This document shows, piece by piece, positions 17,608-23,002 of a stretch of DNA of 64,000 nt (positions within the stretch are counted from its first letter, which is position 1; each line of letters opens with the position of its first letter). Where the stretch lies: contig NZ_CP089980.1 of NCBI RefSeq assembly GCF_021389955.1, forward strand, positions 991,501-1,055,500. Direction: 5' to 3'. The stretch comes from Fulvivirga maritima. Lineage in GTDB: Bacteria > Bacteroidota > Bacteroidia > Cytophagales > Cyclobacteriaceae. The position numbers and the translations under genes were made by a program. Under the pieces are notes generated by a model, which was given only the letters and a program-made list of their open reading frames with translations, did no database searches and had not been told where the DNA came from.

Positions 17608-18475
17608 TCAGGTGTTAATTGTGGGTAACTCGATAGAGTTATCCACTGTTAACGCCCTCTGTGCATACAGCACCGGACTCAAGTCATTCAGACTTTCATG
17701 AGGCCTGAAAAAGTTATAGTCATTCATCCACTTTTCAGTAGCTTCACGCACTTCATTTATATCATCAAAAAGATACACATCCAATACATTTCTTCTGAAG
17801 GTGCCATTCAGCCTTTCTATGTAGGCATTTTGAGTGGGCTTACCTGGTTGTATATAAATGAAGTCGATTTCGTGCATTTGGCTCCATTCCTTAGTTAATG
17901 TTGCAATAAATTCAGGGCCATTATCCATCCTGATCCGCTCAGGTTTGCCTCGACGTTTAATTAAATGGTTTAAAACCCATACTATTTTATTGCTCTTAAG
18001 AGAATAGTCAATCTCTATATGTAGCGCTTCCCTGTTAAAATCATCCATTACATTGAAAGATCGAAACTTTCTGCCGTTAAATAGAGCATCCCTCATAAAG
18101 TCAATAGACCAGGTATGATTGATTACAGGCGGTATTTCCAAAGGCTCTTTCACTCTTGCGGGCAGTCTTTTTTTTTGTCTTTCTACGCATACTTAATCCC
18201 ATGGATTTATAGACTCTATGTACTTTCTTATGATTCCATTGATGCCCCTCATTGCGAAGTCGCCTGAAAGCTTTCCAAAAACCTTCTCTGGGAAACTGCT
18301 CTGCTTTTTCTTTTAAAGCAGCCATAATAGGCTCATCATTTTTAATAGATGAATAATAATAGACGGATTTGGCAAGATTTAAAACCCGGCACGCCCTGCT
18401 GATGCTGATCGCGTAATTAAATTCCCTTTTTATTTCCGTAACTAGCTGCTTTTTCTGGCAGGGCTTTAAAGCTTT
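17608..18475 (-). pseudogene. IS3-family transposase OrfB, frameshifted
   Basis: The integrase-core half of the transposase. The upstream frame gives the N-terminal part (EGFWKAFRRLRNEGHQWNHK, then [15 protein letters not shown]). The downstream frame gives the rve domain with [22 protein letters not shown] and the final catalytic Glu in [13 protein letters not shown]. The two frames are joined in a run of nine A on the coding strand (complement of 18168-18176). Removing one A restores [20 protein letters not shown], the natural sequence, so one base is surplus. All three DDE residues are present, so only the frameshift inactivates it. Confidence 0.8.
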
Positions 18476-18732
18476 TTTTCGATGATCTCTTTAGCAAGCT
18501 TAAGGTCAAGGGCTAATTCCGCATACATGTGTTTGAGCCTGCGATTTTCCTCTTCAAGCTCTTTTAGCTTCCGTAACTCTGAAGCATCCATACCTCCAAA
18601 TCGCTGGCGCCACTTGTAGAAGGCTGCCTGACTAACACCATGCTCACGGCTGATCTCAGCCGCGGTCTTACCTGCATCAAATTCCTTCAAGATGCTGGCA
18701 ATCTGTTGGGGTGAAAATTTCTTTCGTTTCAT
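18466..18732 (-). CDS. IS3-family transposase OrfA
   Basis: 88 residues: a helix-turn-helix (FSPQQIASILKEFDAGKTAA, then EISREHGVSQAAFYKWRQRF), followed by a leucine-zipper-like region ending in ALDLKLAKEIIEKKL. This is the typical OrfA of the IS407-like IS3 group. Near the end the codons GAA AAA AAG form an A_AAA_AAG slippery heptamer, the expected -1 frameshift site for making OrfAB. Confidence 0.88.
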   Translation of the reverse strand: MKRKKFSPQQIASILKEFDAGKTAAEISREHGVSQAAFYKWRQRFGGMDASELRKLKELEEENRRLKHMYAELALDLKLAKEIIEKKL

Positions 18733-19240: not shown

Positions 19241-19420
19241 CCCGACACCATCACCTTTTACATTGGGAATTCCTTCACCAGATCTACAAGTGTAATTTTA
19301 TTGGCACATCAATGAAAAATAAAACAAGAGCACCCACGCGTTGTATATGCCTTTGGCATTTAGTGAGTGTATTTTTCATACCTCACCTTACGGGCGTACA
19401 AGCACCCTCTATGTAGTGAT
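19241..19420 (-). ncRNA. Candidate guide RNA (Cas12f-type scaffold plus one guide) for the Cas12f-like protein
   Basis: Directly after the stop of the Cas12f-like gene the minus strand has ordered hairpins and no reading frame. H1 (19407-19392) is GGGTG, loop CTTGTA, CGCCC. H2 (19386-19363) is GTGAGGTAT, loop GAAAA, ATAC-A-CTCAC. H3 (19359-19347) is ATGCC, AAA, GGCAT. At 19278-19262 comes GTGAAGGAATTCCCAAT. Compared from memory with the Un1Cas12f1 tracrRNA/crRNA, H1 keeps the GCTTG-type loop followed by a second hairpin, and the last segment resembles the 3' end of its repeat (TGAAGGAATGCAAC). By analogy the guide would start at about 19261 (GTAAAAGGTGATGGTGTCGG). Only one scaffold copy is present, so this would be a single fused guide RNA, not an array. 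Exact ends are inferred. Confidence 0.55.
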
Positions 19421-20521
19421 TTAATCCACTATTACTTCAATACCTGCTTTTGCAGCTTTGTATTTAATCTTATTCACCAATTCATAATAACTCCAGTTAC
19501 GTAACACAAATTCTTCTTCCTTGGCCACCTGGCTCTTTTCTGTCTGATTCATAAGAATAAGTGTTCCTGTCTGGTGCTTAACACAAAAGTCAATCAACTT
19601 CTTACTATAAACATGTAAACGATGAGACACATAATTGCTTTCCGCCTCCCTGAGCCTGTCCACTGCTTTCAACTTTCTTTTAATCCCTTTCCCCGAACGG
19701 CTATAGGTAGCCCCTCTCTGCGCTCTTTTTATAGACGCCTGTATGGCCAGCCTTCTGTACAAAAACTCTTCGCGCGTGCCTATAGTCAGTTTTACCTTAT
19801 CGGTTTTCACTACGATAGGATATTCCAAAGACAACGATGCTTCAGCAATAAGCTCCGGCTTCACCTCCTCAGGACTCTTTTCTATCTCAAAGACAGGCAG
19901 CCAAAACACCTTACCATCTTTCAGTTTTATATGAGAAGTGCAAAGCTTGATTTCGCCTTTAATGATCTGATTCAATAAATGATGTTTATCTCCACTATAA
20001 TCTTTGCCCAAATACGTACGAAATGGAATCTGAAATAAACGAAAGCAAAATGCCTTTTTCTCAGCAACATGCCTTAATCCGCCAATGCATTCTGCGCCAA
20101 AAGGAAAGGCCATATCTCTCCTGAAATTCTTTAAGGATCGCTCTCCTTTCCAGTATTCACCTTTATTCTTATTAAAAGCAGATATCAAAGTATTGTTGAG
20201 GTGAGAAAGGATATTGGTAGGTACCTCTCCCAGGAAACGATTAGAAACTACCCGATAGGTGCAATTGATACGAGAACGTTGTAAGATACCAGCATCATCT
20301 TTCTTTTCATCTGACAGCTTATATTTCACTCCTTCAGACAAATAAAAAAAATCCTTGATCATCTCCTGTGTATAAAGATGCGACACAATCAGGTTTGCAG
20401 CCCTGAAGCAACGGTTCTGCCATTGATACAGCTTATCCAAATTCTGCTTTCTTTCCTCCTGCGTAGGCAAGTCTATCAAGAGCTGAATTTTTCGCGTTAG
20501 TTTGATGGTAGACTTATCCAT
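19421..20521 (-). CDS. Nuclease-dead Cas12f/TnpB-like RNA-guided DNA-binding protein
   Basis: 366 residues. The C-terminal ~150 residues align with the RuvC half of Cas12f/TnpB: EEFLYRRLAIQASIKRAQRG, GKGIKRKLKAVDRLREAESN, KKLIDFCVKHQTGTLILMNQ, WSYYELVNKIKYKAAKAGIE. The catalytic positions are gone. Where the family has GxDxG the sequence reads SLSLEYP (about residue 230). Where it has V/I-x-L-E-D/N-L it reads LILMNQTE (near 322). The protein ends at VIVD, just before the zinc ribbon and the third Asp. The N-terminal ~220 residues correspond to the REC/wedge region. It should bind a guide RNA and DNA without cutting. It starts one base after the stop of an ECF sigma gene and is followed by a structured RNA region, the arrangement of dCas12f-sigma RNA-guided transcription systems recently reported from Bacteroidetes (recalled). 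Not a normal IS605 TnpB: no TnpA and no catalytic residues. Confidence 0.85.
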   Translation of the reverse strand: MDKSTIKLTRKIQLLIDLPTQEERKQNLDKLYQWQNRCFRAANLIVSHLYTQEMIKDFFYLSEGVKYKLSDEKKDDAGILQRSRINCTYRVVSNRFLGEVPTNILSHLNNTLISAFNKNKGEYWKGERSLKNFRRDMAFPFGAECIGGLRHVAEKKAFCFRLFQIPFRTYLGKDYSGDKHHLLNQIIKGEIKLCTSHIKLKDGKVFWLPVFEIEKSPEEVKPELIAEASLSLEYPIVVKTDKVKLTIGTREEFLYRRLAIQASIKRAQRGATYSRSGKGIKRKLKAVDRLREAESNYVSHRLHVYSKKLIDFCVKHQTGTLILMNQTEKSQVAKEEEFVLRNWSYYELVNKIKYKAAKAGIEVIVD

Positions 20522-20522
20522 A

Positions 20523-21311
20523 TTAAACGGACTGTAATGCTTGTTGATGTTTTTGCTGAACTACTTTATAGGCGGTCATAAACTGATGATGAACTTCCTT
20601 TTGAGAAAGGTTAAGCTGTGAGGCTATGGCTGCAAAAGAATACTTTTTCTCACAGCGCAGTTTCAACACCTCGGCCTGTTCTTCGGTCATGGTCCCCTGT
20701 ATCTTCATTCCTAAAGCAGGCTGACGTTTATTAGCACCATGCTTTATTATCTTTTTTATGTCTTCAATAGCCATATTCACTTCACGGTATATTTCCTGAA
20801 TATTCCTCCCCATCAATTGGGCTATGAATTTATACTTGAAATCATTTTCAAGACAAAGCGTTATTAAATGCCTCCTTTCAGAATCCAGCAAAGGCAGCAC
20901 TTTTTTCACCTTGTCAAAGGCCTGCTGCTCCTGTTCTTGAGCCTGATAATTCGCCCTTTCAATTTCAGGATCATAACCAGCCATATACTCCTGGTAGTTG
21001 TCAAACGCCTCTAGTGAATTGAGTTTGCGAATAAACTTAGTCTTTGAGCTAGTGAAATAGGTAATACACTCTCTGGTAATCACAAATCGAAGAAAATTGA
21101 ATATATGATCAGGAGATTGAATACTATCTCGTTTCACCCACAGCTTTAAAAAAGCATCTTGCAATAATGAATCTACCATAAAGCTGTCATTAATCAGGTT
21201 CATTCCTATCCAGAAAAGGCGGCGGCTGTGTTGAGAATAGATTTCATTTAAAACCGGAATGTGTCCTCTTTTGAAATCATGAAATTCAAATTTCATCCTA
21301 ACCTGTGTCAT
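20523..21311 (-). CDS. ECF (sigma-E/RpoE-type) RNA polymerase sigma factor with extra C-terminal HTH
   Basis: 262 residues, longer than the usual 170-200. Residues ~17-90 are sigma region 2 (SRRLFWIGMNLINDSFMVDS, LLQDAFLKLWVKRDS, IFNFLRFVITREC). Residues ~128-182 are a sigma4 domain (VLPLLDSERRHLITLCLEND, then FKYKFIAQLMGRNIQEIYRE). Residues ~204-255 repeat that logic (TEEQAEVLKLRCEKKYSFAA, then IASQLNLSQKEVHHQF), a second sigma4-like helix-turn-helix. No anti-sigma gene is adjacent. The stop TAA is separated from the Cas12f-like ATG by one base, so the pair is translationally coupled. Inferred role: recruited by the guide-loaded Cas12f-like protein to bring RNA polymerase to target promoters. 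Regulated by the divergent XRE protein through the overlapping operator. Confidence 0.85.
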   Translation of the reverse strand: MTQVRMKFEFHDFKRGHIPVLNEIYSQHSRRLFWIGMNLINDSFMVDSLLQDAFLKLWVKRDSIQSPDHIFNFLRFVITRECITYFTSSKTKFIRKLNSLEAFDNYQEYMAGYDPEIERANYQAQEQEQQAFDKVKKVLPLLDSERRHLITLCLENDFKYKFIAQLMGRNIQEIYREVNMAIEDIKKIIKHGANKRQPALGMKIQGTMTEEQAEVLKLRCEKKYSFAAIASQLNLSQKEVHHQFMTAYKVVQQKHQQALQSV

Positions 21312-21336
21312 AGTTAATTTATTATTCTATCAAATC

Positions 21337-21367
21337 CCAAGATAAAAAAATTAAGGTTGTAAACAAA
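21337..21367 (-). promoter_or_regulatory. Predicted promoter of the sigma/Cas12f-like operon
   Basis: On the minus strand: TTTG at 21367-21364 (-33 box), 19-base spacer, TATCTTGG at 21344-21337 (-7 box). The Bacteroidetes consensus is TTTG-N19-21-TAnnTTTG, so there is one deviation in the -7 box. It lies 26 bp before the sigma start. The -33 box is inside the palindrome at 21358-21377. Confidence 0.5.
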
Positions 21368-21377
21368 TTCGTTTACA
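21358..21377. promoter_or_regulatory. Palindromic operator between sigma gene and XRE regulator
   Basis: TGTAAAC, six bases (AAATTC), GTTTACA: perfect 7-bp arms. It lies between divergent genes and overlaps the predicted -33 box of the sigma operon. The adjacent XRE protein is the obvious candidate ligand, giving repression of the operon and autoregulation. Inferred from position and symmetry. Confidence 0.6.
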
Positions 21378-21422
21378 TAATATTTCTAGCTTAATTGTTT
21401 TTTTGCCATATACATAAAGCTA

Positions 21423-21653
21423 ATGGCTATCAAGAAAGAAATATTGCAGAAACGACTCGGAGAAAGGATAGCTTATTTAAGAACAACGAAAGGGCTGAAC
21501 CAAACAGAATTAGCACACTATTGCAACAAGGATAGGCAAAGTATCAACCGTTTAGAGAAGGGTAAGGTAAATCCATCCATCTATTACCTTTTACAGATAT
21601 CAAATGCTTTGGAAATTAATATGAGTGAGCTTTTCAATTTTGACTTGAAATAG
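21423..21653 (+). CDS. XRE-family HTH transcriptional regulator (76 aa)
   Basis: A compact lambda-repressor-type domain fills the protein: RLGERIAYLRTTKGLNQTEL, AHYCNKDRQSINRLEKGKVN, PSIYYLLQISNALEINMSEL. No other domain. It is divergent from the sigma gene with a perfect palindrome in between. Likely represses the sigma/Cas12f-like operon and itself. Small XRE proteins of this form also accompany mobile elements, in keeping with the neighbouring integrase. Confidence 0.85.
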   Translation: MAIKKEILQKRLGERIAYLRTTKGLNQTELAHYCNKDRQSINRLEKGKVNPSIYYLLQISNALEINMSELFNFDLK

Positions 21654-21757: not shown

Positions 21758-23002
21758 CTAACCTTTACTTATTCCTCTCGAATTGGCCAGCTTCTCCTGA
21801 AGCAATCCCATATCTTCACTCACTTTATGCTCTACCACTTTAGCATATATCTGGGTTGTAGTAATTTTAGTATGCCCTAACATTTTACTAACTGATTCTA
21901 TTGGCACTCCATTACTTAAAGTGACTGTGGTAGCAAAGGTATGTCTGGCTAGGTGAAAAGTGAGGTTTTTACGTATTCTACATAAATCAGCTATTTCCTT
22001 TAAATAAGAGTTAAGCTTCTGGTTTGATATGACAGGAAATAGTGTTCCATTAATTTCAGCTCTGGGATGTTCCTTATACTTACTTATAATTTCCATTGCC
22101 TTAGGTAAGATCGGAACACTTACTTTCTGCTGCGTCTTTTGCCTGGTGGTCATTATCCATAATTTACCATCTACCCCCTTACTTAGATTTTCTGGCGTCA
22201 ACTTCATTACATCAATATACGCTAAGCCAGTATAACAGCTAAAAACAAATAGATCCCTCACCCAATCCAACCTGGCTATCTCGAACTTCTTATCCTGCAA
22301 CCTTATTAACTCATCTTGATCCAGAAAACCGCGCTCAACTTTATTAAATTTCAGCTGATATCTTTCAAATGGATCCTTTACCATCCACTCTAACCTCACA
22401 GCCAACCGTATTAACTTCCTCAATCTTTCAAGGTGCTTCATCACACCATTATTAGACAATGGTTTCTGATGATCCGTTGGCTGATATGCCCTTAAGTAAA
22501 GCTCAAACTCGGTAATAAACTTATAGGTAAGCTCAGACAAATACATATCTGATTTTCCGTAACGTTTCTTAAGGTAGCGTAGAAGGTATTTCTTAGTTGT
22601 ATAATAATTCTTTAAGGTGCCATCAGACAAAACATTCTTGAAATTGGTATTATGATAATCAACTAACTGAGTAATAGTGTGCCCGTCTTCATCCAGACCA
22701 AGAGCCATGTTCTTGAGAGCTTCTGCCGTAATCAATTTTTTCTCAATCTGCATTTGCTGATAGCTATTAGTAATGCCGGATCTAAATTGTTCCAGATAAT
22801 GATTTAGTTCCTTTACCGCCATAGCAGTACCTTTCGCCCGACCACCTGATTCATTCCAATTGGCAATTTTAATTCTCTTTTTCATAGAGACTTCCACTCT
22901 TTCAGAATCTACAGTAATACGGGCATAAATAGGCACCAGACCGTTTTTAAGCTTATTTCTCCTGATAATAAATTGTACTCCAAATGTTTTTGAACTCCTC
23001 AT
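21758..23002 (-). CDS. Tyrosine site-specific recombinase (integrase)
   Basis: 414 residues of the Bacteroidetes conjugative-transposon integrase type. An N-terminal arm-binding domain (FGVQFIIRRNKLKNGLVPIY) is followed by a SAM-like core-binding domain at ~105-210 and a catalytic domain at ~225-400. HLARHTFATT supplies His-x-x-Arg, MLGHTKITTTQIYAKV supplies the late His and the nucleophile Tyr. FSCYTGLAYIDVMKL covers the first Arg position, which is Ala here as in many Bacteroidetes integrases. Arm-like repeats and an att candidate lie 30-300 bp upstream of its start. It probably integrates an element that includes or neighbours the Cas12f-like module. Confidence 0.88.
   Translation of the reverse strand: MRSSKTFGVQFIIRRNKLKNGLVPIYARITVDSERVEVSMKKRIKIANWNESGGRAKGTAMAVKELNHYLEQFRSGITNSYQQMQIEKKLITAEALKNMALGLDEDGHTITQLVDYHNTNFKNVLSDGTLKNYYTTKKYLLRYLKKRYGKSDMYLSELTYKFITEFELYLRAYQPTDHQKPLSNNGVMKHLERLRKLIRLAVRLEWMVKDPFERYQLKFNKVERGFLDQDELIRLQDKKFEIARLDWVRDLFVFSCYTGLAYIDVMKLTPENLSKGVDGKLWIMTTRQKTQQKVSVPILPKAMEIISKYKEHPRAEINGTLFPVISNQKLNSYLKEIADLCRIRKNLTFHLARHTFATTVTLSNGVPIESVSKMLGHTKITTTQIYAKVVEHKVSEDMGLLQEKLANSRGISKG

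Follow-up and report, generated by a model that had tools for sequence, protein, structure and literature searches.

Introduction

Nuclease-dead forms of Cas12f (dCas12f) that act together with a sigma factor of the extracytoplasmic function (ECF) type are known from solved structures (PDB 9n9c, 9n9m, 9n9o and 9n9q). In such dCas12f-sigma systems, transcription starts at a distance of about 46 bp from the guide target and the target-adjacent motif (TAM) is a 5′-G; guided activation has reportedly been described for relatives in a preprint. Here we describe an operon of this kind in a 64,000-nucleotide (nt) stretch of the Fulvivirga maritima genome (the window; contig NZ_CP089980.1, positions 991,501 to 1,055,500). 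The guide RNA (gRNA) encoded behind the two genes has a probable target elsewhere in the same genome, a structured leader that precedes a SusC/SusD operon for nutrient import across the outer membrane. We consider it reasonably likely that dCas12f-sigma starts transcription at the guide-chosen site, that the attenuator in this leader is the target, and that the guided start bypasses it.

The gene pair and its relatives

The genes for the ECF sigma factor and the dCas12f are encoded on the minus strand of the window (Table 1), and their open reading frames (ORFs) are separated by a single base, as the sequence-only reading of this DNA had already stated. Residues 1-365 of the dCas12f can be aligned to the chain of 9n9c, named 'Nuclease-deactivated Cas12f' (E 1.8e-178), and end-to-end matches were obtained to all four PDB entries; the solved chain is 72% identical to the window protein. 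The sigma factor matches the 'RpoE' chain of 9n9q (E 6.2e-82) and passes the cut-off for sigma70-ECF (63.4 versus 42.9). Because both proteins match chains which were solved together in 9n9q, the window locus is, judged by its protein sequences, a member of the already known dCas12f-sigma kind. The same had been proposed before, and the gRNA behind the genes agrees with it. Probably, a CRISPR protein that is dead for cutting and its guide RNA aim the sigma factor.

The nuclease-dead assignment, too, holds upon comparison with 9nzo, an active-type Cas12f of 506 amino acids (aa), to which residues 85-363 align. The catalytic Asp is replaced by Ser (GVDLG in 9nzo, ASLSL in the window protein) and the catalytic Glu by Asn (QMERL and LMNQT, respectively), and intact RuvC catalytic residues, as expected for a CRISPR-Cas12f nuclease, are not found in this alignment. 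Beyond residue 414 nothing of 9nzo is aligned, and the window protein lacks this remainder. The earlier claim that the protein stops ahead of the zinc ribbon and the third Asp is thus borne out as regards the stop; these two features would reside in the C-terminal part of 9nzo beyond this residue. The match to NCBIfam guided_TnpB is clear (E 1.8e-18) but stays below the cut-off (67 bits versus 100), and the match to Pfam OrfB_IS605 is weak (E 0.009).

A scan of species genomes retrieved 115 dCas12f relatives, of which 80 were kept (61-79% identical); family counts given below cover these 80. The length of 366 aa had been taken as unusually short, but 78 of the 80 relatives have 364-366 aa and this is the family norm, the exceptions being L028 (early stop, 62 aa) and L078 (378 aa). 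The distance between the sigma and dCas12f genes is 1-2 nt in 73 relatives, while the other 7 have a larger gap or no sigma ORF under the rule used. Since they are shared by 78 and 73 of the 80 relatives, short length and tight coupling to sigma are family traits. A decayed dCas12f remnant with a stop, still adjoined by a gRNA scaffold, was encountered in G019 (C12:220887-221251).

The guide RNA

The structured non-coding stretch which had been noticed behind the genes contains the gRNA scaffold, followed by the guide region (Table 1). Over 32 copies, the scaffold is paired in 99.0% of cells, with changes on both sides in 5 of its 15 pairs, compared to 27.5-56.5% pairing in slid controls. With a strict pattern, 88 gRNAs were found in 70 loci, the window included. 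In 66 of these gRNAs (59 loci) the scaffold is followed by a guide of the GCGTG type, of which about 10 nt are conserved and which is T-rich past about nt 12. The idea that the guide segment is just a conserved end of the scaffold was discarded, as gRNAs with the same scaffold carry quite different sequence at this position.

Several loci carry two to six gRNAs in tandem. At L049, L050, L060, L035, L023 and L034, three to six tandem gRNAs with differing guides are arranged in an array-like manner 3′ of dCas12f. A second kind of guide (e.g. AAAAATCCGATC, CCTTCCCCTAAAG) occurs at L022, L024, L036, L027, L010, L034, L125 and L129, and for these no match to the leader was found.

The probable target in the Fulvivirga genome

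The genome of 6.39 Mb contains one dCas12f, one gRNA and two copies of the leader. The leader copies were found by a covariance model, independently of the window guide; the only further matches of this model at E ≤10 are two short ones (E 3.3 and 7.2). G plus the first 11 guide nt (GGCGTGGGTGCT) occurs exactly once in the whole genome, and this site is at the homologous place of one of the two leader copies (Table 1). By chance, 0.12 matches are expected (window base composition), and a control with the reversed pattern gave none. The site is beside a 5′-G, in agreement with the TAM, it is located upstream of a gene, and it has the same direction. While the window guide has 11 nt in common with this leader, it shares an average of 5.9 nt, and no more than 8, with leaders from the other genomes compared, and its GGGTGCT stretch is unusual among these leaders. 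The second copy in the own genome has only 7 nt in common with the guide. Behind each of the two leaders there is a small ORF, then a gene for SusC/RagA (TIGR04056 by a test on L167) and one for a SusD-like protein. From these sequence comparisons, the SusC/SusD leader at 2.79 Mb is the probable target of the window guide. An unlinked target chosen by the guide had been postulated before; there is now one candidate for it, 1.78 Mb away from the operon.

Two other targets were considered. A search with the 20-nt guide (up to 3 mismatches) retrieved one site besides the gRNA itself, upstream of another ECF sigma gene. It was rejected because it diverges at the fifth base (GCGTT), has no leader, and is located in an apparent intrinsic terminator, which follows a dihydrolipoamide-dehydrogenase-like gene. 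For the window, a guide aimed at nothing but its own operon was discounted, as no leader is found upstream of the sigma gene.

Table 1 Features of the dCas12f-sigma locus and of its probable target. Coordinates refer to the window unless a contig is indicated.
Feature	Coordinates	Strand	Comment
ECF sigma factor, 262 aa	20523..21311	(-)	homologue of the dCas12f-bound RpoE of PDB 9n9q
dCas12f (nuclease-dead Cas12f), 366 aa	19421..20521	(-)	Asp to Ser, Glu to Asn, without C-terminal part
gRNA scaffold, three covarying hairpins, 3′ end ACAAC	19340..19409	(-)	sole match of model R2 in own genome
Guide region	19320..19339	(-)	first 11 nt (19339-19329) match the candidate target exactly; remainder T-rich
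Candidate guide target site	C1:2,786,580-2,786,591	(-)	exact G+11-nt match at homologous place of one leader copy
Probable target leader	contig 2,786,520-2,786,675	(-)	before SusC/SusD operon, 1.78 Mb from window locus
Second own leader copy (L167 440-597)	C1:1067039-1067196		11.5 kb past right end of window; near-duplicate SusC/SusD operon
Divergent HTH_3 regulator gene, 76 aa	21423..21653	(+)	upstream of sigma gene, where 44 of 80 relatives carry the leader

Structure of the leader

For the guide type, a matching site is located some 200 nt upstream of the sigma gene in the relatives, and a hairpin pattern reveals a conserved, structured element there in 44 of the 80. RNAalifold detected little besides the central hairpin in a first leader alignment. 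A rod was then written by hand and tested by pair counts and slid controls; on 24 copies, 96.4% of the cells pair and 13 of 32 pairs are changed on both sides. Two pairings were subsequently tested on 64 leader copies from the 65 loci searched (there was none from L066). The middle segment B pairs with the upstream segment A to form the rod. Over its whole length 98.4% of cells are paired, and both sides have changed in 23 of the 32 pairs, compared to 30.9-41.8% pairing in slid controls; this count leans towards the rod as the alignment was fitted to it. With the downstream segment C, segment B forms a stem in front of a T-run, and the pairs of this stem are absent from the model; here 97.5% of cells pair and 7 of 15 pairs are changed on both sides (slid controls 38.3-47.6%). 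Rod and terminator-like stem, both backed by covariation, are mutually exclusive, and segment B, which holds the guide site, is common to both. In terms of its sequence, the target leader thus shows the exclusive antiterminator and terminator pairings that characterize an attenuator.

In all 64 copies a G precedes the site; counted from target nt 1, the first base of the outer C arm is at +59 to +69. When the own leader is folded, the stem from segment B on has -38.0 kcal/mol, but a transcript from +46 only -6.1. Numerous G-U pairs on this strand fix the sense of the leader RNA. In 59 of the 64 copies, compared to 4.1 in shuffled sequences, a TAnnTT[TA]G box (the Bacteroidota -7 motif) is found 25-50 nt before the modelled leader start.

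Rfam 15 was scanned with six relative loci and one L003 copy, the own-genome leader copies being left out: at gathering score only tRNAs and no leader family were found in the six loci, and the best hit at E ≤10 in L003 (4880-5230) reached 17.6 bits versus a cut-off of 39. No paper on dCas12f-sigma or on the leader was found among the titles and abstracts searched. The leader may represent a new class of regulatory RNA in its own right.

Distribution of the leader and the genes behind it

The covariance model detected the leader in 18 of 20 whole genomes, which were chosen from the relatives together with the window's own. For 32 copies not directly before a sigma-dCas12f operon, the downstream genes were judged by size and sequence. 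In 18 of these a SusC-like gene is found within 2.4 kb, with a full-size SusD-like gene next in 15 cases. The other 14 comprise one with a TonB-receptor-like ORF further on, two at contig ends, ten with other or unclear genes, and one which is located 1.4 kb before a sigma-dCas12f pair. Ten downstream proteins were compared to Pfam and NCBIfam and, except for one small ORF, were assigned to SusC, SusD, M16 peptidase or AhpC-type families.

Among 395 sampled Bacteroidota genomes, 48 contain the leader (E ≤1e-5) and 8 contain this dCas12f (E ≤1e-20). Six of the 8 dCas12f genomes but only 42 of the 387 others have the leader (Fisher p 5.6e-5, relatedness not corrected). Since the leader is also found in genomes without dCas12f, the RNA-guided system is either younger than the leader or narrower in its distribution. 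Among 20 hand-picked copies from eight dCas12f-free genomes, 12 precede genes of SusC/SusD size, and others precede response-regulator or ECF-sigma-like ORFs.

At L186, L190, L193, L192 and L151, the leader was observed before response-regulator-like or ordinary ECF sigma ORFs. The leader regulon may include regulators.

Proposed mechanism and alternatives

We propose that the sigma factor and dCas12f would use the downstream guide RNA to begin transcription at a chosen site. A leader transcript from its own promoter would end at the T-run unless the rod holds segment B. At the DNA level, the guide corresponds to segment B, and if dCas12f-sigma were bound there, polymerase could start further on, downstream of B and before or within C. 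Such a transcript would lack one terminator arm and would read into susC; it would keep C and lose B because a start at about 46 bp precedes the C arm. Binding, activation, start position, attenuation and bypass at the target are all predicted from sequence. Where the leader precedes the sigma-dCas12f genes themselves, positive feedback is predicted; the window has the divergent HTH_3 gene there instead.

Guides match the examined leader of their own genome by at least 10 nt in 13 of 45 cases, distributed over 10 of 18 genomes; weak leader copies and one G010 copy were left out of this comparison. Several observations weigh against a guided start past the attenuator. The window guide matches its target for 11 nt only, with mismatches at nt 12-15 and 17. 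Eight of the 18 genomes have no guide-leader match of at least 10 nt: G003, G013, G017 and G019 carry GCGTG-type guides and yet do not match their own leaders to this extent, and neither do G006, G010, G011 and G012, which have other guides only or mostly. G005 and G018 have GCGTG-type guides, but no leader was matched there by the covariance model. Some guides have their aim elsewhere: for the L017 type, a site with 3 mismatches is found in G001, some 220 nt downstream of a leader, and in L017's own genome the only match is its own gRNA copy. Both the start distance and the TAM are taken from general background. Finally, the leader is far commoner than the dCas12f clade (48 versus 8 of 395 genomes), so that attenuation, if real, is independent of dCas12f.

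The last point leads to the alternative that survives best, namely that an RNA-guided sigma factor does target the SusC/SusD leader but that the leader structure is irrelevant. Guides would then have settled on the best-conserved stretch, and the terminator-like pairing would represent a normal 3′ end or belong to some unrelated riboswitch. The guide-matching segment is indeed among the most conserved parts of the leader, and the presence of the leader in dCas12f-free genomes, commonly before SusC/SusD, would fit an element that evolved for something else. However, the site is between the arms, with a geometry suited to bypass, in all 64 aligned copies, and the same leader precedes the sigma gene itself in 44 of the 80 dCas12f operons. 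We consider this alternative rather unlikely, although it deserves to be taken seriously.

The guide could instead act on RNA, its B-like sequence pairing in trans with nascent segment C and thereby blocking the terminator. This is attractive since the guide has the sequence of segment B, the partner of C, but action on DNA and in initiation is indicated by the sigma partner and by the solved dCas12f-sigma entry, and the pairing of the own guide with its own C arm, as read from the sequence, amounts to only about 8 bp; antitermination by the guide is therefore most improbable. It seems just as improbable that the 11-nt match arose by chance, with the true target elsewhere or lost. Guides of several relatives fail to match their own leaders, as would be expected in this case, but the match of the window guide is the only one in the genome, with 0.12 expected, and coincides with the homologous position in one of the two leaders. 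Least likely of all is that the complex represses or blocks transcription of the leader in the manner of TldR, a nuclease-dead TnpB repressor. A plain repressor would not need a sigma gene, and in 73 of the 80 relatives such a gene precedes dCas12f at a distance of 1-2 nt.

We thus favor a guided start that bypasses the SusC/SusD attenuator. One step further, and only as a tentative idea that we place below even chances, RNA-guided initiation may have evolved to override attenuation. Guides would copy the 5′ terminator arm of an undescribed SusC/SusD attenuator, the start would always fall between the arms and give a transcript that is resistant to the terminator, and in the approximately half of the relatives whose dCas12f-sigma operon carries the attenuator, this operon would activate itself along with its targets. 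A guided start at this leader would mean that a complete genome contains a natural target at which a dCas12f-sigma system can be checked, and would join programmable initiation with leader attenuation in nutrient-import operons; to our knowledge, these two have not been joined before.

Neighbourhood of the operon

Among 36 leader-less relatives, 30 have a divergent ORF with a length of 55 aa or more upstream of the operon; seven of these ORFs were tested, and five gave an HTH match at E ≤0.01. It would be a guess that the HTH_3 gene of the window takes part in the dCas12f-sigma system. Within window 21312-21653, which includes the HTH_3 gene, a palindrome-like sequence, TGTAAACGAATTTGTTTACA, is found between this gene and the sigma gene.

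A tyrosine recombinase (Phage_integrase, Arm-DNA-bind_5; window 21758-23002) adjoins the operon, which may have arrived on a mobile element. Just past the gRNA, IS3-type transposase ORFs are found (window 17608-18732), with rve domains in a 181-aa ORF and an HTH-like ORF of 88 aa. The housekeeping protein LpdA was compared with regard to horizontal transfer; its identity is 73-76% for three flavobacterial genomes, while two genomes of the same family reach 77-79%.

Comparison with known systems

The region of RuvC-type fold in the window dCas12f aligns to 9nzo and to TnpB chains, but unlike the Cas12f nucleases and TnpB the protein lacks the catalytic Asp and Glu and the C-terminus. With TldR it has in common that a protein with dead RuvC is combined with a guide RNA. 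TldR differs in being without a sigma partner, in being phage-borne and in being aimed at flagellin genes. In the window, a sigma gene is one base away and the best full-length match is a dCas12f. Regulation of flagellin expression by TldR is described in a published report (PMC13418256). Riboswitches and attenuators resemble the target leader in having two exclusive pairings, the second being a stem before a T-run, whereas the leader stretches scanned gave no match in Rfam 15.

The closest relationship is to the dCas12f-sigma system of 9n9c, 9n9m, 9n9o and 9n9q, which has the same two full-length proteins, the same gene order and the same scaffold. The first 102 residues of the PDB dCas12f chain occur in the L017 protein (record named Allomuricauda taeanensis). 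Between window and L017 there are 262 identities for dCas12f (366 and 365 aa) and 128 for sigma (262 and 261 aa). The start of the guide differs, however, being TTGTGGGATATACG in L017 and GCGTGGGTGCT in the window, and upstream of the sigma gene L017 has the leader whereas the window has the divergent HTH gene. In summary, the gene pair is of a known kind, and what is newly added here is its probable target.
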